Below the pieces are notes generated by a model. It saw nothing but the letters and a program-made list of their open reading frames with translations, made no database searches and was not told the origin of the DNA. A program made the translations under genes and the position numbers. 64,000 nt of DNA from Acidovorax sp. Leaf78. Lineage in GTDB: Bacteria > Pseudomonadota > Gammaproteobacteria > Burkholderiales > Burkholderiaceae_C. Positions 7,160 through 48,421 of the stretch are shown in pieces (position 1 is the first letter of the stretch; each line of letters starts with the position of its first letter). Location: contig NZ_LMLZ01000001.1 of NCBI RefSeq assembly GCF_001422735.1, forward strand, positions 245,233 through 309,232. The letters run 5' to 3'.

Positions 7160-8173
7160 TCAAATCTCGTCGCGGGGCCCGCGTCCCATGAGCTGGGCCA
7201 CGGCCTCGGCGGGCTGCACGCGGCCATCGAGCAGCGCCACTGCCGCCTCGGAAATCGGCATGTCCACCCCCAACGCCTGCGCGCGCTGCACCACGGTGCG
7301 GGCGCTGTAGACGCCTTCTGCCACATGCCCCAGCGACTCCACGGCCTGCGCCAGGCTGTGGCCCTCCGCCATCAGCATTCCCACGCGCCTGTTGCGCGAC
7401 AGGTCGCCGGTGGCAGTCAGCACCAGGTCGCCCAGGCCGGACAAGCCCATGAAGGTATCGGGCCGTGCGCCCAGCGCCAGGCCCAGGCGCGTCATCTCTG
7501 CCAGGCCGCGGGTGATGAGCGCCGCCCGGGCGTTGAGCCCCAGCGCCAGGCCGTCGCACAGGCCGGTGGCAATGGCCAGCACGTTCTTCACCGCGCCGCC
7601 CACTTCCACGCCGACGATGTCTTCGTTGGCATACACGCGCACGCTCTTGCTGTGAAACGCCGCCACCAACGCATCGCGCACGGCGGCATGGCTGCTGGCG
7701 GCGACCAGCGCCGTGGGTTGGCCCAGCGCCACTTCCTGCGCAAAACTGGGGCCACTGAAAACGCCTGCTATCAACTTAGGAGCTATCAGCGCTTGTACTT
7801 CGTGCGCCAGCAGCCCAAAAGCTTGCGGATCGCCACCTGGGGCTGCCGCCTCAAAGCCCTTGCAGAGCCAAGCCACGGGCGCGGTGCAACCACGCAACGA
7901 CGTCAGCATGCCGCGAAGGGCGGCCATGGGCGTGGCCACGATGACCAGGTCGGCGCCGGGCAGCAGGGCGGTAAAGTCGCCGTCGGCCAGGGTGAGGGAT
8001 GAAGGAAAGGCAATGCCAGGCAGGTAGCGCGCGTTCTGCCCCTGGCTGCGCATCTGCTGCGCCTGCGCCGCATCGCGGGCCCAGAGGGTGACGGCATGCC
8101 GTGCAGGATGCTGGGCCGCGCTCATGGCGACGGCCGAACCCCAGGCGCCTGCACCCAATACTATGATTTTCAT
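7160..8173 (-). CDS. gpsA: NAD(P)-dependent glycerol-3-phosphate dehydrogenase
   Basis: Reduces dihydroxyacetone phosphate to sn-glycerol 3-phosphate for phospholipid synthesis. 337 residues. The N-terminal dinucleotide motif [10 protein letters not shown], the CKGFE motif, [22 protein letters not shown] with the catalytic lysine, and the C-terminal [15 protein letters not shown] block are all present. Last gene of a minus-strand series rhodanese-grxC-secB-gpsA. Two odd points: the start codon lies inside a hairpin of an intergenic repeat (8161-8208), and a second partial copy lies in frame at 7766-7796, coding for part of a segment that looks longer than in E. coli GpsA. No Shine-Dalgarno sequence is evident upstream of the ATG. 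Confidence 0.96.
7766..7796. repeat. Intragenic partial copy of the double-hairpin repeat in gpsA
   Basis: Matches the left hairpin and the following AGCGCTT of the repeat described at 8161: TGCTATC, an 8-base loop, AGCTAT, then CAGCGCTTGT. The right hairpin is missing. It is read in frame on the minus strand as roughly [12 protein letters not shown], immediately before the conserved SGPSF motif. Confidence 0.6.
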
Positions 8174-8208
8174 AGCTGTTTGCGCTTGTCAGGCAAGCGG
8201 TGGAGCCC
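8161..8208. repeat. Double-hairpin repeat overlapping the gpsA start
   Basis: One of at least seven copies of a ~50-bp element with two hairpins: CTATGATTTTCATAG, then GCGCTTGTCAGGCAAGC. The family pattern on this strand is TGCTAT-N7-ATAGCTG, CTAGCGCTT-N4/5-CAAGCGGTAGC, then a T run. Here the left hairpin contains the gpsA initiation codon, because the minus strand reads GCT-ATG-AAA-ATC-ATA. Other copies are at 19511, 23707, 34629, 47210 and 48347. Confidence 0.85.
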
Positions 8209-8301
8209 AAAAAGATCGGGAATTCAATGGCCCATGACGCGGTGTCTCGGCCTGAGCCCAGCAGCCAGCACTGTCCGGGCGAGGTCGCCGCGAAACCGGC
8301 T

Positions 8302-8381
8302 GTGCCAGGCCGCTGGCTGCATCCCCTCCCGAGCACACAGCGCGACGAGAGAGGAGCAGGGCGCGAAGCGGCGCCGGGGGC
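8302..8381 (-). repeat. Diverged copy of a stop-proximal 80-95 bp element, after secB
   Basis: On the plus strand it shares GTGCCAGGCCGC-GG, TCCCCTCCCG, GCGCGACGAGA and GAAGCGGCGCCGGGGG with the clearer copy at 33685-33781. Like that copy it sits directly downstream of a stop codon (secB, 8388-8390) in the same orientation relative to the gene. Similarity is partial, so this is the weakest of the three copies. Confidence 0.5.
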
Positions 8382-8387
8382 GTTACA

Positions 8388-8846
8388 TCACTGCGTGATG
8401 ATCGGCGAAGGCTGGCCGGCGGCCTGGGCCTGCTGCTGCTCGTACATGGCCTGGAAGTTGATTTCGGCCAGATGCACGGGTGGGAAGCCGGCGCGGTTGA
8501 TCAGGTCGGCCACGTTGCCGCGCAGGTAGGGGTACACGATCTGCGGGCAGGCGATGCCCATGATGGGGCCCATCTGGTCTTCGGGGATGTTGCGGATCTC
8601 GAAGATGCCGGCTTGCTTGGCTTCGACCAGGAACACGGTCTTGTCCTTGATCTTGGTCTGCACCGTGGCCGTCACCGCGACTTCAAAGATGCCTTCGGCC
8701 ACAGGAGTGGCTTCCACGCCGAGCTGGATGTCCACGCTGGGCTGCTCTTGTTCGAGCAGGATGCCGGGGGAATTGGGCTGCTCCAGCGACAGGTCCTTGA
8801 GGTAGACGCGCTGGATCTGGAAGACGGGGTTTTCTTGATCGGCCAT
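8388..8846 (-). CDS. secB: Protein-export chaperone SecB
   Basis: Cytosolic tetrameric chaperone that keeps Sec-dependent precursors unfolded and delivers them to SecA. 152 residues from the start at 8846 ([20 protein letters not shown]), the standard SecB N terminus. The frame is open to 8924, but that extension has no family match. The central [11 protein letters not shown]-like and [13 protein letters not shown] segments and the [19 protein letters not shown] block are typical. It lies between grxC upstream and gpsA downstream, a common arrangement in proteobacteria. Confidence 0.96.
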
Positions 8847-8956
8847 GGTGGATAAGTCTCTTTGCGCTAACGGATTTTCAGCAAAACAAAACCCGCCGTG
8901 GGAAAGCTCCCGCAGCGGGCACATGGGGCAGCATTATGCAGCCGCCCGGGGTGGGG

Positions 8957-19495: not shown

Positions 19496-19510
19496 TTTTT
19501 TCCGAATTAA

Positions 19511-19559
19511 AGCAGCCGCTGCCGCTCATCTGGCAAGCGCTAGCTGCTATCAATAGCAG
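19511..19559. repeat. Double-hairpin repeat downstream of panC
   Basis: Copy in minus orientation: reading that strand gives TGCTATTGATAGCAG, CTAGCGCTTG, CCAGATGAGCGGCAGCGGC. It begins 4 bases after the panC stop codon and lies between two convergent genes. Confidence 0.8.
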
Positions 19560-19563
19560 AGCA

Positions 19564-20418
19564 TCAGAACTCCAGGTTGTCGATGAGCCGCGTGGTGCCC
19601 AGGCGCGCCGCACCCAGCGCCACCAGCGTGCCCGGCGCGTCCTCGGCCGTGGGTGCCAGCAGATCCACCCGGCGGCGCACCGTCAGGTAGTCGGGCTGCC
19701 AGCCGCGGGCGCGCAGGGCGTCCAGGGCATGCTGCTCCCACGCTGCGGCGTGCTGCGGGTCAGGGGCCGGGGCGCCGCGCCAGCGCTGTGCCAGTTGCTG
19801 CAGCGCCTGCGACAGCGCCACGGCTTCCTGCCGCTCCTGCAGTCCCAGGTAGCCATTGCGCGAGCTCAGGGCCAGCCCGTCGGCGGCGCGGAAGGTCTCG
19901 CCCGCCACGACCTCGATGGGCAGCGCAAACTGCCGCACCATGTGGCGAATGACCATGAGCTGCTGGTAGTCCTTCTTGCCGAACACGGCCGTGCCGCCCG
20001 TGGCGCCCAGCACGCAGGCAAACAGCTTCATCACCACCGTGCTTACGCCCACGAAGAAGCCGGGTCGGAAGTGCCCCTCCAGCATGTCGGCCAGCAGCGG
20101 GTCGGGGTGCACCTTGAAGGTCTGGGGCTCGGGGTACAGATCCGCCTCGCGCGGTGCGAACAGCACATCGCAGCCGGCGGCCTGCAGCTGGGCGCAGTCG
20201 GCCTCCCAGGTGCGCGGGTAGCTGTCGAAATCCTCGTGCGGCAAGAACTGCAGCCGGTTCACGAAGATGCTGGCCACTGTCACGTCGCCCAGGGGTTTGG
20301 CCTGGTGCACCAGGGCGATGTGCCCGTCGTGCAGATTGCCCATGGTGGGCACGAACGAGGGGCGGCGGTAGGGCGCCAGGGCCTGGCGCAGGTCGGCAAC
20401 GGAGCGGGCGATGAGCAT
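19564..20418 (-). CDS. panC: Pantothenate synthetase
   Basis: Condenses pantoate and beta-alanine with ATP to pantothenate. 284 residues from the start at 20418 (MLIARSVADLRQALAPYRRP). The nucleotidyltransferase motif PTMGNLHDGHIALV and the KMSKS-like KKDYQQLMVIRHM are present, as is SSRNGYL near residue 185. The frame extends to 20613 without family similarity. It lies 115 bases downstream of panB on the same strand, forming a panB-panC unit. Confidence 0.95.
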   Translation of the reverse strand: MLIARSVADLRQALAPYRRPSFVPTMGNLHDGHIALVHQAKPLGDVTVASIFVNRLQFLPHEDFDSYPRTWEADCAQLQAAGCDVLFAPREADLYPEPQTFKVHPDPLLADMLEGHFRPGFFVGVSTVVMKLFACVLGATGGTAVFGKKDYQQLMVIRHMVRQFALPIEVVAGETFRAADGLALSSRNGYLGLQERQEAVALSQALQQLAQRWRGAPAPDPQHAAAWEQHALDALRARGWQPDYLTVRRRVDLLAPTAEDAPGTLVALGAARLGTTRLIDNLEF

Positions 20419-23687: not shown

Positions 23688-23706
23688 GGGCGTGGTGGCA
23701 ATGATG

Positions 23707-23759
23707 TGCTATTTATTTGATAGCTGCTTGCGCTTATCCATCAAGCGGTAGGGGCATTT
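23707..23759. repeat. Double-hairpin repeat before pabB
   Basis: TGCTATTTATTTGATAGCTG, CTTGCGCTTATCCATCAAGCG, GTAGGGGCATTTT. It ends directly at the TTG start of the PabB-PabC gene, and its GTAGGGG appears to be the only available ribosome site for that gene. Confidence 0.85.
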
Positions 23760-25631
23760 TTGACTGGTATTTCACGCATCGACTTCACCCAACCGCAGGA
23801 TGCCGACAAGCCGCGCCTGCGCCATGCGTTTGGCGCGCCGCGCGAAGTGCTGGTGGCGCACGACCTGGTCGATGTGCGCGGTGTGCTCGACGCTGTGCAT
23901 GCGGCCGCCGCGGCAGGGCGCTGGTGCGTGGGGTATGTGCGCTACGAGGCCGCTGCCGCGTTCGACGCTGCGCTGCAGACCCATGCGGCCGATGGCCCGC
24001 TGGCGTGGTTTGCGGTGCACGACGCGCCCCTGCCGTGGCCTGCTGACGCGGCAGTCGCTTCTCCCCACGATGTTGCCGAAGTGACCTGGACCGGCCCCCC
24101 CCGTCGCGCCGCCTTCGATGACGCCATGGCGCGCATCCAGCACGCCATCGGCGCGGGCGAGCTGTACCAGGTCAACCACACCGCACCGCTGACCGGCACC
24201 CTGCAGGGCAGCCCCGCCAGCCTGTTTGCTGCACTACTGCGGGCGCAGCCCGGCGGTTACGCCGCGCACATCGACGCGGGCGGCGAGCAGGTGCTGTCGG
24301 TGTCGCCCGAACTCTTCTTCGACTGGCAGGACGCGCCCGACGGCGGTCGCATTCTGGCCCGCCCCATGAAGGGCACCGCCCCGCGGGGCGCCACGCCCGA
24401 GCAGGACGCGGCCCATGCCGACCACCTGCGCACGGCCCCCAAGGAGCGGGCCGAGAACGTGATGATCGTGGACCTGCTGCGCAACGACCTGTCGCGCATC
24501 GCGCTGCCGCACAGCGTGCAGGTGCCCGCACTGTTCGCCACCCAGGCCTTGCCCACCGTGTGGCAGATGACGTCCGACGTGGTGGCGCGCACGCGGCCTG
24601 GCACCACGCTCACCGATGTGTTCGCGGCGCTGTTCCCGTGTGGCTCCGTCACCGGCGCGCCCAAGGTGCGGGCCATGCAGATGATCCATGCGCTCGAAGG
24701 CCAGCCCCGGGGTGTGTACTGCGGCGCGGTGGGTGTGGTGCGGCCCGCGGGACGGCTGAGAAAGGCGGGGCCGGGCGGCGCCACCCACGCCGTGGCCGCC
24801 ACCTTCAACGTGCCCATCCGCACCGTGGTGCTCCACGAGAGGAGCGGACCGGAAGATGGGTGGAGCGCCACCTGCGGCATTGGCAGCGGCATCACCTCGG
24901 GCGCCGAAGCTGCCGCAGAATGGCAGGAGTGGCGCCACAAGCGCGCATTCGTGGAGCGTGCGAGCATGCCTTTCGACATTCTGGAAACACTGGCCCTGAA
25001 CGACGGCAAGTTCCGCCATGCAGACCTGCACGTGGCGCGCATGGGCCAGGCGGCGGTGCACTTCGGCTATCCGTGGAACGCCCATGCCGTGCGGCAAGAG
25101 CTGCAAATCGCGGCCCTGCAGAACCTCAACGGTGCCTGGCGCGTGCGGCTGCTGCTGTCGGCCGACGGCAGCGCGCGCGCCGAATCCTTTGCCCTGCAGC
25201 CCACCGCGGAGCCCGTGCGCCTCCAACTGGCCGCCACCGCCTTCGAATCGGCCCACGGCGAATTCGTGCGGCACAAGACCACGCGCCGCGCGCACTATGC
25301 TGCGTATGCGCCCACCACGCCGGGCGTGTTTGACACCGTGCTCTGGAACGAGGCGGGCGAGATCACCGAGAGCACCTTCGGCAACATCGCCGTGCTGCTG
25401 GACGGCCAGTGGGTCACCCCGCCCCTGGCCTGCGGCCTGCTGCCCGGCGTGGGCCGCGCGGTGGCGCTGCGCGAAGGGCAGGTGGCCGAAGCCGTGGTGC
25501 GCCTGGCCGACTTGCCGCGCGTGCAGGGCTGGGCCTTCATCAACAGCCTGCGCGGCTGGCTGCAGGCAGAGATGGCAGCGCCCGGCGCACTTCCGCAGGT
25601 GGCCGGACCCGCGGACCGCGAAGCCCGCTGA
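23760..25631 (+). CDS. pabB: Aminodeoxychorismate synthase component I fused to aminodeoxychorismate lyase
   Basis: 623-residue bifunctional protein for p-aminobenzoate and hence folate synthesis. Residues ~1-390 are a chorismate-binding PabB domain with the PIKGT-type lysine motif (ARPMKGTAPRG), NVMIVDLLRNDLSR and GSVTGAPKVRAM. The rest, from about residue 400 (MPFDILETLALNDGKFRH), is a PLP class-IV PabC lyase domain, with ESTFGNIAVLLDG and GLLPGVGR. Such fusions are common in Burkholderiales. The TTG start at 23760 is the first in-frame initiator and abuts a repeat. No glutaminase (PabA) gene is in the window. Confidence 0.92.
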   Translation: MTGISRIDFTQPQDADKPRLRHAFGAPREVLVAHDLVDVRGVLDAVHAAAAAGRWCVGYVRYEAAAAFDAALQTHAADGPLAWFAVHDAPLPWPADAAVASPHDVAEVTWTGPPRRAAFDDAMARIQHAIGAGELYQVNHTAPLTGTLQGSPASLFAALLRAQPGGYAAHIDAGGEQVLSVSPELFFDWQDAPDGGRILARPMKGTAPRGATPEQDAAHADHLRTAPKERAENVMIVDLLRNDLSRIALPHSVQVPALFATQALPTVWQMTSDVVARTRPGTTLTDVFAALFPCGSVTGAPKVRAMQMIHALEGQPRGVYCGAVGVVRPAGRLRKAGPGGATHAVAATFNVPIRTVVLHERSGPEDGWSATCGIGSGITSGAEAAAEWQEWRHKRAFVERASMPFDILETLALNDGKFRHADLHVARMGQAAVHFGYPWNAHAVRQELQIAALQNLNGAWRVRLLLSADGSARAESFALQPTAEPVRLQLAATAFESAHGEFVRHKTTRRAHYAAYAPTTPGVFDTVLWNEAGEITESTFGNIAVLLDGQWVTPPLACGLLPGVGRAVALREGQVAEAVVRLADLPRVQGWAFINSLRGWLQAEMAAPGALPQVAGPADREAR

Positions 25632-34624: not shown

Positions 34625-34628
34625 CAGG

Positions 34629-34685
34629 TGCTACTAAAAATATAGCTGCTAGCGCTTATCTGGCAAGCGGTAGCAGCGATTTTTA
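34629..34685. repeat. Double-hairpin repeat between DUF3460 and scpA
   Basis: TGCTACTAAAAATATAGCTG, CTAGCGCTTATCTGGCAAGCG, GTAGCAGCGATTTTTA. It is one of the best matches to the family pattern and starts 4 bases from the scpA initiation codon. Confidence 0.88.
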
Positions 34686-34710
34686 TGCCTAAACGGAACA
34701 CCAATGCGGG

Positions 34711-40225: not shown

Positions 40226-42418
40226 TCAACGCACCCGCATGCCCGGCAGAGCACCCGGCCACGGGTTCAGCACGTAGATACCCGGATTCGCCTTCTCATC
40301 CCCATGGCTGGCAGCCAGCACCATGCCTTCGGAGATGCCGAACTTCATCTTGCGCGGTGCCAGGTTGGCCACCATCACGGTGTGCTTGCCCACCAGGTCT
40401 TCTGGCTTGTAGGCGCTGGCGATGCCGCTGAAGACATTGCGCGTGCGCCCTTCGCCCACGTCCAGCGTCAGGCGCAGCAGCTTGGTGGAGCCCTCCACTG
40501 GCTCGCAGTTCACGATCAGCGCGATGCGCAGGTCGATCTTGGTGAAGTCGTCGATGCCGATGGTGGGGGCCAGTTCTTCGCCGCCGGGGGCTGCTACGGT
40601 TTCAGTAGCGGCTGGCGCTGGTGTGGCGGGCGCTGGGGGCTCGAACAATGCTTCCAGCTGGTCAGCCGTAACTCGTTTCATCAGATGCCCATAAGCGGCA
40701 ATTTGGTGACCGGCTGGCAGCTCGGTGGAAGCATCTTTCCACTCAAGCTCAGGGATGTTCAAAAAGGTTTCAACCGCCTTCGAGGTGGCAGGCAATACCG
40801 GCTTGAGGCACAGGGTCGCGATTCTGAAAACGTTGAGTGCAACGGTGCAAACGCCCAGCAAGCGCTCTTCTGCACCCTCCTGCTTCGCTAAAACCCAAGG
40901 GGCATGAATGTCGATGTATTCATTGCAGGTATCGAGCAACTCGGAGACGCTACGAATCGCTTTGCCGTACTCACGCGCTTCGTACAGGGCTTGTATTTCA
41001 TTGGCAACCAGAGCGGCCTTCAACAGTGGATTGATCGGACCTCTGTTTCCAACTTCTTCAGTAGCTTTTGGAGCAGGGAATGCCGCGCGAATGTTGTCCG
41101 GCAATTCTGATGCCAAGGTACCGGACAGCTTTCCGCCAAATTTCTCGTTGATAAATTTGGCGCATCGGCTGGCGATGTTCACGTACTTGCCGATCAGATC
41201 GCTGTTCACCCGCAGCATGAAGTCTTCGGCGTTGAAGTCGATGTCTTCGTTGCGCGCGCTCAACTTGGCCGCCAGGTAGTAGCGCAGCCATTCGGCGTTC
41301 ATGCCCAGGCTCAGGTACTTGAGTGGGTCGAGGCCGGTGCCGCGGCTCTTGCTCATCTTCTCGCCGTTGTTCACGGTCAGAAAGCCGTGCACGAACACGT
41401 TGTCGGGCGTCTTGCGGCCGGAAAAGTGCAGCATGGCGGGCCAGAACAGCGTGTGGAAGGTGACGATGTCCTTGCCGATGAAGTGGTACTGCTCGGTGTC
41501 GGCAGCGGCCATGTAGTCGTCAAAGCTGCGCGTGTCGCCGTGTCGGGCCTTGGGGCCGCCCTTGTCGAACCAGTTCTTGAGCGAGGCCAGGTAGCCCACG
41601 GGCGCGTCGAGCCACACGTAGAAATATTTGCCCGGCGCGTCCGGGATCTCGATGCCGAAGTAGGGCGCGTCGCGGCTGATGTCCCAGTCGCCCAGGCCTT
41701 CGCTGGTGGTGCCGTCCGGGTTGGTGCGCACGGTGAACCATTCCTTGATCTTGTTGGCCACCTCGGGCTGCAGCTTGCCGTCCTGTGTCCACTTCTCCAG
41801 AAACTCGACGCAGCGCGGGTCGGACAGCTTGAAGAAGAAGTGCTCCGAATTCTTCAGCTCGGGCTTGGCGCCCGACAGGGCCGAGAACGGGTTGATCAGG
41901 TCGGTGGGCGCATACACCGTGCCGCACACCTCGCAGTTGTCGCCGTACTGGTCCTTGGCGTGGCACTTGGGGCATTCGCCCTTGATGTAGCGGTCGGGCA
42001 GGAACATGTTCTTCTCGGGGTCGAAGAACTGCTCGATGGTGCGCACCTCGATCAGGCTGCCGTCGGCGCGGTCGCGCAGGTCGCGGTAGATCTGGCGGGC
42101 CAGTTCGTGGTTTTCTGGCGCATCGGTGCTGTGCCAGTTGTCGAAGCTGATGTGAAAACCATCCAGGTACTGCTTGCGGCCCGCGGCGATGTTGGCCACG
42201 AATTCCTGGGGCGTGACGCCGGCCTTCTCGGCAGCGATCATGATCGGCGCGCCGTGCGTGTCGTCCGCACCCACGAAGTTGACGGCGTGGCCCTGCATCC
42301 TTTGGTACCGCACCCAGATGTCGGCCTGGATGTATTCCATGATGTGGCCGATGTGGAAGTTGCCGTTGGCGTACGGCAGGGCGGTGGTGACGAAGAGTTT
42401 GCGTGCGGATGACGTCAT
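40226..42418 (-). CDS. metG: Methionyl-tRNA synthetase
   Basis: Charges tRNA-Met. 730 residues. HIGH motif at 22-25 ([10 protein letters not shown]), a zinc knuckle with CPKC and CEVCG, KMSKS ([14 protein letters not shown]), the anticodon-binding helical domain, and a C-terminal EMAP-like tRNA-binding domain ([20 protein letters not shown]) joined by an Ala/Pro/Glu/Thr-rich linker. Roughly 40650-41170, covering most of the anticodon-binding domain, has more A/T-ending codons than the rest of the gene or its neighbours, suggesting recombination. The apbC/mrp gene is 3.7 kb away; the two are adjacent in many genomes. Confidence 0.96.
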
Positions 42419-47200: not shown

Positions 47201-47209
47201 GGTCGGGTT

Positions 47210-47264
47210 TGCTATTGAATGGATGGCTGTTGGCGCTTGATGGACAAGCGGTAGCGCACCAAAA
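47210..47264. repeat. Double-hairpin repeat upstream of the DUF1016 gene
   Basis: TGCTATTGAATGGATGGCTG, TTGGCGCTTGATGGACAAGCG, GTAGCGCACCAAAA. It starts 10 bases after the apbC stop and ends 22 bases before the DUF1016 gene. Confidence 0.82.
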
Positions 47265-47286
47265 GGCTGCGCAGAGGACTAACCCC

Positions 47287-48345
47287 ATGAGCGAAAAGCC
47301 CGTCGGCCTGATCGACCCGCCCGCAGGCTACGCCGATTGGCTGGCCGAGTTGAAGGGGCGCATCCACGGCTCCCAGCAGCGCGCCACGCTCGCTGTGAAC
47401 CGTGAGTTGGTCCTGCTGTACTGGCAGATCGGCCGGGACATCCTGCAGCGCCAGGCGGCGCAGGGTTGGGGCTCGAAGGTGATCGATCGGCTGGCACAGG
47501 ACTTGCGCGCAGCCTTTCCTGAGATGAAGGGCTTTTCTCGGGCTAACCTCATGTACATGCGCGCGTTTGCGCAGGCGTGGCCTGATGCGGCAATTGTCCA
47601 ACAGGCTGTTGGACAATTGCCTTGGGGCCACAACCTGGTGCTTCTGTCGCAGTTGAAAGATCCCGCGCAACGGCTGGCCTATGCACAAAGTGCCATTGCG
47701 CATGGATGGTCGCGCAATATGCTGAACATCCATATCGAAACCCGTCGCCTGGAACGCAGCGGCCAGGCGGTGACGAATTTCGAGGGCTGCTTGCCCAAGC
47801 CGCAGTCGGACTTGGCCCGAGAATCTCTGAAAGACCCCTACCGTTTTGACTTCCTGGGCTTGTCCGACGAGGCTCAAGAGCGCGAAATCGAAGGTGCCCT
47901 GGTCAAGCATGTGACTGAATTCCTGCTGGAACTCGGCGCAGGGTTTGCCTTCGTGGGCAGGCAGGTGCTGCTGGATGTGGGTGGCGACGAGTTTTTCATC
48001 GACCTGTTGTTCTATCACCTCAAGCTGCGCTGCTATGTGGTGATCGAATTGAAGGCGGGCAAATTCAAACCCGAGCATCTCGGCCAATTGGGCTTCTACC
48101 TCACGGCAGTGGACCGCCAGGTCAAGGGCGAGTACGACAACCCCACGATTGGACTGCTGCTGTGCAAAACCAAGAACAAGGTGGTGGCTGAGTACGCTCT
48201 CGGAGACAAGTCGCAACCGATGGGCAGTGCCGAGTACAAGTTGCTGGAGTCCCTGCCCGCAGAATTGCAGACCAGCCTTCCCAGCATCGAGCAGATCGAG
48301 CGTGAACTGGCGGACAGCCCGATGCCCGATGCCGGAGATACTTGA
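47287..48345 (+). CDS. DUF1016 / YhcG-family PD-(D/E)XK nuclease
   Basis: 352 residues. The N-terminal DUF1016_N helical domain (NRELVLLYWQIGRDILQRQA, LPWGHNLVLLSQLKDPAQRL) is followed by a PD-(D/E)XK nuclease domain with intact-looking residues D239, E254 and K256 (IDLLFY, VIELKAGKFK). E. coli YhcG is an uncharacterised homologue, and the family is often found in mobile or defence settings. Here it is isolated, bracketed by two double-hairpin repeats, and appears slightly less GC-rich than its neighbours, which suggests acquisition. No methylase or partner gene is adjacent. Confidence 0.88.
   Translation: MSEKPVGLIDPPAGYADWLAELKGRIHGSQQRATLAVNRELVLLYWQIGRDILQRQAAQGWGSKVIDRLAQDLRAAFPEMKGFSRANLMYMRAFAQAWPDAAIVQQAVGQLPWGHNLVLLSQLKDPAQRLAYAQSAIAHGWSRNMLNIHIETRRLERSGQAVTNFEGCLPKPQSDLARESLKDPYRFDFLGLSDEAQEREIEGALVKHVTEFLLELGAGFAFVGRQVLLDVGGDEFFIDLLFYHLKLRCYVVIELKAGKFKPEHLGQLGFYLTAVDRQVKGEYDNPTIGLLLCKTKNKVVAEYALGDKSQPMGSAEYKLLESLPAELQTSLPSIEQIERELADSPMPDAGDT
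47590..47620. repeat. Perfect 14-bp inverted repeat inside the DUF1016 gene
   Basis: GCAATTGTCCAACA, spacer GGC, TGTTGGACAATTGC. Exact arms with a 3-base spacer, encoding the segment AIVQQAVGQLP just before the conserved PWGHN motif. Confidence 0.85.
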
Positions 48346-48346
48346 T

Positions 48347-48402
48347 TGCTCCTGAAATGTGAGCTTCTAGCGCTTTCTACATAAGCGCTACAGCCAAAAA
48401 AA
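48347..48402. repeat. Double-hairpin repeat downstream of the DUF1016 gene
   Basis: TTGCTCCTGAAATGTGAGCT, TCTAGCGCTTTCTACATAAG, CGCTACAGCCAAAAAAATG. It begins 2 bases after the stop codon. More diverged than the upstream copy. Confidence 0.75.
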
Positions 48403-48421
48403 TGCCTGCAAACCTCCGCCC

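Follow-up and report, generated by a model that had tools for sequence, protein, structure and literature searches.

The gpsA start codon of Acidovorax sp. Leaf78 lies within a copy of a dispersed palindromic repeat of the Comamonadaceae

In Acidovorax sp. Leaf78, the ATG at which gpsA appears to begin falls inside a hairpin of a repeated element. This raises the question of whether a conserved gene really starts within a dispersed repeat, and, if so, how gene and repeat came to share these bases and what the sharing may mean for translation. The window referred to below is the whole stretch of DNA analysed, 64 kb in length.

The repeat family and the start codon of gpsA

The repeat was described with a covariance model, R1, which was derived from 11 further copies in the same genome and from which the copy at the gpsA start was excluded. 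R1 has 59 positions and two hairpins, A (CGCTTG/CAAGCG) and B (GCTAT/ATAGC). The family consensus, with edges taken from 67 copies, extends about 7 nt further 5' than the model, giving 59–67 nt overall, and no clear terminal inverted repeat was found at its ends. CTAC stands before hairpin A in this genome and CTAG in many relatives. R1 matched the minus strand at 8157–8215 (63.8 bits; E 3.4e-18 over the 64-kb window). Within this copy, hairpin A (8183–8199, minus strand; R1 structure and sequence) ends 9 nt 5' of the ATG, and hairpin B (GCTATGA/TCATAGT; 8160–8176, minus strand; sequence and RNA fold) holds the ATG itself. The minus strand from 8176 to 8160 reads GCTATGAAAATCATAGT, a stem of GCTATGA and TCATAGT closed by an AAA loop, and the gpsA ATG (8171–8173, minus strand), which corresponds to repeat positions 43–45, lies in the 5' arm. 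The proposal of the initial annotation that this ATG sits inside a hairpin of the repeat was borne out, the hairpin being the second of the two.

The gene itself (7160–8173, minus strand) encodes an NAD(P)H-dependent glycerol-3-phosphate dehydrogenase, as supported by NCBIfam NF000940 (457 bits, above the cut-off) and by solved homologues such as 3k96. An in-frame TGA lies upstream of the ATG at 8189–8191 (minus strand), with no ATG, GTG or TTG in between, and the GxGxWG motif follows at residues 7–12. The next ATG is codon 17, past the GAGAWG nucleotide-binding motif, so that initiation there would lose this motif. TTG stands at codon 6 in this genome and in only 7 of the 16 Acidovorax rows. 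When GpsA was compared without its first Met, the alignments to NCBIfam models and to solved homologues began at residue 1–2 of the query. Among 41 named Comamonadaceae gpsA loci with GCT directly before the ATG (GCT-ATG), 35 have an in-frame stop 3–18 codons upstream with no intervening start codon; in the other six (L081, L092, L094, L095, L098 and L140) the reading frame extends further upstream without a stop or contains other start codons. From these sequence comparisons, the ATG of the repeat (8171–8173) is very probably the true gpsA start.

The upstream neighbour is secB (8388–8924, minus strand, given as the ORF; NCBIfam NF004394, 261.6 bits, for 8388–8840). The spacer between the two genes is 214 nt here and tens of nucleotides in some relatives, and several species have in common an extra G+C-rich block 5' of the repeat; in the window, the part of the spacer 5' of the repeat is 8216–8387. 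A promoter-like match spans the repeat; its transcript would begin 3' of the gpsA ATG, and the match carries no weight.

At least 150 copies of the repeat are present in the genome (all 150 scored candidates had E <= 8.2e-11 with R1), a floor given that 150 of 5377 first-look candidates were scored. Four further copies in the window scored at least 58 bits, all of them part of the set from which R1 was built: 19507–19565 (plus strand, 59.8 bits), 23705–23763 (minus, 74.1 bits), 34627–34685 (minus, 67.1 bits) and 47208–47266 (minus, 58.5 bits). The G+C content of the five strong window copies is 0.42–0.54. Weaker repeat-like copies were seen on the minus strand at 40590–40648 and 48345–48403 (26 and 24 bits), the first of them G+C-rich (0.68). 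R1 also matched the plus strand at 34637–34691 with 31 bits, over the minus-strand copy at 34627–34685, a sign that the whole element is in part a palindrome. At gathering scores, Rfam gave 0 matches in the 64-kb window; one sub-threshold microRNA match was taken as chance.

Most copies of the repeat lie between genes, and they occur on both strands; some lie in frame within genes. Among 73 sampled copies, 25 lay between convergent genes, 19 and 19 fell in the two tandem contexts, 6 lay inside ORFs, 3 lay between divergent genes and 1 was incomplete. These counts come from a crude gene caller that misplaced the gpsA start, and its exact gene starts are therefore unreliable. The idea that the repeat donates a Shine-Dalgarno sequence was rejected: 10 of the 73 copies have GGAG in the right arm, and for 7 of them the gene that they face is on the opposite strand. 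The G that completes the ATG is a minority letter, since repeat position 45 reads C in 30, T in 19, A in 14 and G in 4 of 67 full-length copies.

Conservation, N-terminal codons and leader at gpsA

The site was compared in 30 gpsA loci fetched from the 36 genomes of the genus that were searched, the own genome included, and in 80 named Comamonadaceae loci, two sets that overlap. GCT-ATG stands at the gpsA start in 27 of the 30 genus loci and 41 of the 80 named loci. R1 matched at the exact gpsA register in 31 of the 80, from Acidovorax, Simplicispira, Comamonas granuli, Curvibacter, Extensimonas and MAGs, and diverged start copies missed by R1 are visible in Rhodoferax and Giesbergeria. The named loci L083, L086 and L087 lack the repeat. 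In 20-kb stretches from genus members, the gpsA copy was found in 18 of 20; four neighbouring repeat sites were kept in 9/17, 7/9, 3/9 and 3/5 of the genomes having both flanks. Since the neighbouring sites are shared as well, they too are old, and gpsA tops the range without forming a class of its own; a uniquely conserved gpsA site is thereby ruled out. By these comparisons, the gpsA start copy is old and probably vertically inherited. One Acidovorax lineage (G005) lacks the repeat at four of five sites, namely gpsA (L033), the HAD gene (L279), GluQ (L366) and the permease (L388), and keeps it at hisH (L244), which makes it a natural control.

The first residues of GpsA, MKII, had been thought to derive from the repeat. 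This did not hold, as three repeat-less loci of the genus also start ATGAAAAT. These loci (L032, L033 and L034) begin with ATGAAAATCCTT (MKIL) or ATGAAAATAATC (MKII), and their gpsA starts read ATGAAAATCCTTGTT or ATGAAAATAATCGTC. Repeat-less named relatives start, for example, ATGAAGATC or ATGAACATC, with the same six residues ahead of GAGAWG. Across the 80 named loci the N-terminus is mostly M-[KN]-[IL]-x-V ahead of the GAGAWG region, with or without the repeat, and the N-terminal residues are therefore native to GpsA.

What tracks the presence of the repeat, in the aligned sequences, is codon choice in codons 4–5 and not the residues. All 16 repeat-bearing Acidovorax rows have ATA at codon 4 and 14 of them have GTA at codon 5, and codon 6 varies; ATA is rare in the window, accounting for 16 of 557 Ile codons in 37 coding-like ORFs. 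The three named Acidovorax rows without the repeat likewise carry rare codons at these places, CTT GTT. An [AG]TAG 3' arm occurs within gene nucleotides 6–16 in 40 of the 41 GCT-ATG loci versus 1 of the 39 others. A Fisher test that takes no account of phylogeny gives p 2e-20 for this association and was set aside as overstating it, given the result on the gpsA tree. On that tree, built without the start and arm columns, the presence of GCT-ATG changes 9 times and three well-supported independent pairs are available, of which 2 agree, 0 oppose and 1 shows no difference. With only three such pairs, the association is strong by count and not significant once descent is respected.

The absence of a Shine-Dalgarno sequence near the gpsA ATG, also pointed out in the initial annotation, was confirmed and proved typical of the Comamonadaceae gpsA genes compared. 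Between -20 and -5, 76 of the 80 named loci contain none of six Shine-Dalgarno-like motifs. The exceptions are L117, L126, L138 and L148, of which L117, L126 and L148 bear the GCT-ATG repeat. As the sequence is missing with or without the repeat, this is a trait of gpsA across the family and not caused by the repeat.

Other genes at the same repeat position and copies within coding sequence

We found the pattern AAGCGCNNNNAGCTATG at 21 places in this genome and at 0 when it was read backwards. Four of the 21 open an accepted gene: gpsA, a HAD-family phosphatase gene (L212), an ABC-2-type permease gene (L220) and hisH (L229). In a relative (G007), 7 of 43 such places do so, comprising the same four and three more that were named by eye, YheT-like (L289, low codon score), ZIP-like (L299) and FtsX-like (L309). 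Accepting ORFs as gene starts was a judgement, and the pattern requires an ATG, which favours starts there. Coding-like ORFs were left uncounted at L223 (ambiguous) and L224 (taken as inside another frame) in the own genome and, in the relative, at L286, L291, L303, L310, L313 and L316, which have positive codon scores but are short or have frames open far upstream.

The GCT-ATG start was conserved among genus loci in hisH (20/21), the HAD gene (16/19) and the permease gene (10/11), after loci without a close match were left out (hisH of G018; the HAD gene of G003 and G011, along with a weak unrelated match in G002; the permease gene in 5 of 16 genus genomes). That hisH, the HAD gene and the permease gene all start at the same repeat position suggests that the repeat is a start-codon module which has been captured repeatedly. 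The arms of hairpin B are complementary in gpsA and in the permease gene, and at hisH and the HAD gene only 3 pairs are left, with GAAGC in place of the 3' arm; what these starts have in common is thus hairpin A and AGCTATG. Hairpin A itself has decayed in several HAD rows. Residues 1–7 of HisH precede the family profile and MNMEA(K) is missing from 9 hisH rows of other families, so the N-terminal residues of HisH may derive from the repeat. The hisH of G002 has GCC-ATG and no visible repeat, yet reads MNTQAK. In the permease, the sole row without the repeat (G005) has MSTLVHSF versus MNSIVNSF, at equal length. A dxs-like gene (L154) and a small hydrolase-like gene (L057), both named by eye, start at the 3' end of the repeat, at position 58, a possible second start register.

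Copies were also found within coding sequence. Three of the 6 sampled copies inside called ORFs encode in-frame QKxPLPxxGxAQAAxxxxA peptides, and in-frame repeat stretches of about 20 residues were seen in GluQ (L152), an ABC ATPase (by eye; L183) and a large protein (L151). In GluQ (NCBIfam NF004313), 18 of 21 genus rows carry an insert of about 20 residues that is missing in G005, G002 and the 5 aligned outgroup rows; G011, with a broken frame, is unclear, and 2 other rows could not be anchored. The insertion site is too diverged for a target-site duplication to be read. In this alignment, the GluQ copy behaves as an insertion.

A second repeat-like stretch lies within gpsA, at codons ~118–137 (7765–7822, minus strand). 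R1 gave it only 6.9 bits (E 2.6), and its support comes from permutations that preserve protein and codon usage (3000 for the window gpsA, 500 for each of the 80 named loci). Its weight-matrix score of 9.7 was reached by 0 of the 3000 permutations (mean -38.3, sd 9.7). The same codon stretch was best, at the test floor, in 15 of 16 Acidovorax rows (L069–L082, L084 and L085, the exception being L085), and also reached the floor in L101, L106, L131, L145 and L147 among others. The match was below 0.05 in 0 of 11 Hydrogenophaga rows and in 4 of 8 Variovorax rows (0.004–0.024), though the latter lack the start copy. Outgroup GpsA proteins have a homologous helix of nearly equal length, with LLAHEV in G056, so the stretch is not an added insert, and gap-free alignments exclude a length-adding insertion. 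Of the earlier suggestion that gpsA absorbed the element twice, the two repeat-like stretches stand but insertion does not, because both lie in gap-free native segments of the protein. Replacement through recombination with a repeat copy is one possibility for the internal stretch.

Explanations and relation to known repeats

We consider it probable that gpsA starts in an old, inherited copy of a Comamonadaceae palindromic repeat, which would offer a ready-made, mostly Shine-Dalgarno-free 5' leader and start codon and would have been captured by several genes. The comparisons across genomes show the common register, its conservation and its absence in some lineages. Repeat positions 43–45 (AGCT-ATG) could serve as a start codon, preceded by hairpin A 9 nt upstream and followed by codons of the AAA/AAT type. 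The genes putatively captured at the exact register are gpsA, hisH, the HAD phosphatase gene and the ABC-2 permease gene, possibly with three more in one relative. We infer that ribosomes start at the ATG of the repeat, and capture may have come about through insertion or recombination beside a native start. The direction of capture is not polarised, as N-terminal lengths with and without GCT-ATG are equal at gpsA, at the permease and even at hisH (G002).

In a stronger form, which we put forward tentatively and regard as somewhat unlikely, the repeat would act as a translation-initiation module scattered through the genome. Hairpin A, the nine bases after it that end in AGCT, and the ATG would together recruit ribosomes with no need of a Shine-Dalgarno sequence, and Comamonadaceae core genes would repeatedly have adopted the module as their start, along with its N-terminal M-[KN]-x-x-[AV].

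The copy could instead be a neutral relic that came to lie at the gpsA start by chance and was passively inherited, its N-terminal codons being merely repeat-like. Other repeat sites are common to several species, the nine presence changes on the gpsA tree indicate that the copy comes or goes, and native GpsA already starts M-K-I-x-V, all of which fit such a relic. However, four unrelated genes start in the same register, which nearly all fetched genus loci keep, and ATA persists at codon 4 while codon 6 varies freely, which makes passive inheritance unlikely.

We also weighed whether hairpin B, alone or lengthened, hides the ATG and controls gpsA translation as a thermosensor or switch. In predicted folds, the ATG lay within hairpin B in all 4 repeat-bearing genes folded (z -1.24, -1.41, -3.92 and -2.23), and the hairpin was absent from 4 repeat-less genes (z 0.04, 0.04, 0.04 and -0.76). 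Several folds paired the 3' arm of hairpin A with the Gly-Ala codons and not with its own partner, which, if the predictions hold, would lengthen the start hairpin. At the G029 gpsA start (L031/L085), an AAGCAC arm is predicted to pair with GGTGCT of codons 7–8, a possible compensatory change. Further points in favour of control are that pairing across 40 distinct rows reaches 99% in hairpin B and 77% in hairpin A, and that the rare ATA stands at codon 4 in all 16 Acidovorax rows. Against these, covariation of the A and B base pairs was no higher than in shuffles (356/500 reached the score) in an alignment of 40 of the 41 GCT-ATG rows (L105 left out) and the window row, so that covariation as proof of RNA structure was negative, and M-K-I-x-V already dictates much of the arm sequence. 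In the repeat-less L086 and L110, too, the predicted folds pair the ATG, within other stems; hisH and the HAD gene have GAAGC instead of the 3' arm; the genus loci L032–L034 and the named loci L083, L086 and L087 do without the repeat; and the short stem is closed by a G-U pair. Control by the hairpin thus seems quite improbable, and we do not think that hairpin B is a switch; it looks weak and tolerated.

An origin of the whole family in gpsA, from its internal segment or its start, with later spread, is extremely improbable: gpsA, the gene examined in this respect, bears two repeat-like stretches in native coding sequence, but at most one of these could be the source, the codon match is missing in all 11 Hydrogenophaga rows, and the GluQ copy behaves as an insertion.

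The reading of a captured leader and start codon was also set beside known repeats. REP sequences of REP/RAYT systems carry, in the conventional orientation, a GTAG or CGTC tag beside a palindrome of 20–40 bp, and an associated Y1 transposase lies next to the repeat. Such an origin was rejected, with one Y1_Tnp match in the genome and no match to the repeat in its 3.3-kb locus, and, by term search, Acidovorax, Delftia, Polaromonas, Rhodoferax and Burkholderiales were all absent from a survey of tagged palindromes (PMC3733652). Rickettsia palindromic elements are described as dispersed palindromes, found between genes and in frame within conserved genes as a peptide insert (PMC10969869, PMC2229807). 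The present repeat is likewise palindromic, dispersed and in frame within protein genes with a conserved peptide, and by its in-frame copies and GluQ insert it behaves like them. Unlike these elements, described as Rickettsial and ~105–150 bp long, it measures ~59–67 nt, belongs to Comamonadaceae and would supply start codons in a fixed register. For the MITE-like ERIC, Yersinia palindromic sequence and Correia elements, repeat-derived protein stretches have been proposed, in Yersinia for example within the YPO1552 signal peptide (PMC2229807); single fusions are described there, whereas here several conserved genes appear to take their start codon from one and the same repeat position. MITEs have terminal inverted repeats and a target-site duplication and are mobilised by a known transposase; in the present consensus, terminal inverted repeats were not clearly visible. 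TAACTGA repeats of Beggiatoaceae are dispersed, lie at start codons and overlap or replace Shine-Dalgarno sequences (PMC4679880), but are described as heptamer direct repeats 5' of the ATG, whereas the present repeat is palindromic and contains the ATG. BRE are dispersed in Bordetella and Comamonadaceae, with some copies overlapping or inside ORFs (PMC3110155); at ~90 bp and an average 69% G+C in Bordetella, they are set apart by description from a repeat of 59 nt with 42–54% G+C. The repeat was not recognised in a limited search of the open-access literature, to which any claim of novelty is tied. What appears new, as judged by comparison, is the reuse of one repeat position as the start codon in several conserved genes.

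If several conserved genes do start at one position of a repeat, such repeats would not be just genome filler, and could donate translation starts and perhaps N-terminal residues. Close relatives that carry the same gene with and without the repeat would then form a natural series for the study of initiation without a Shine-Dalgarno sequence, and the same series would show how a mobile sequence joins a core gene.
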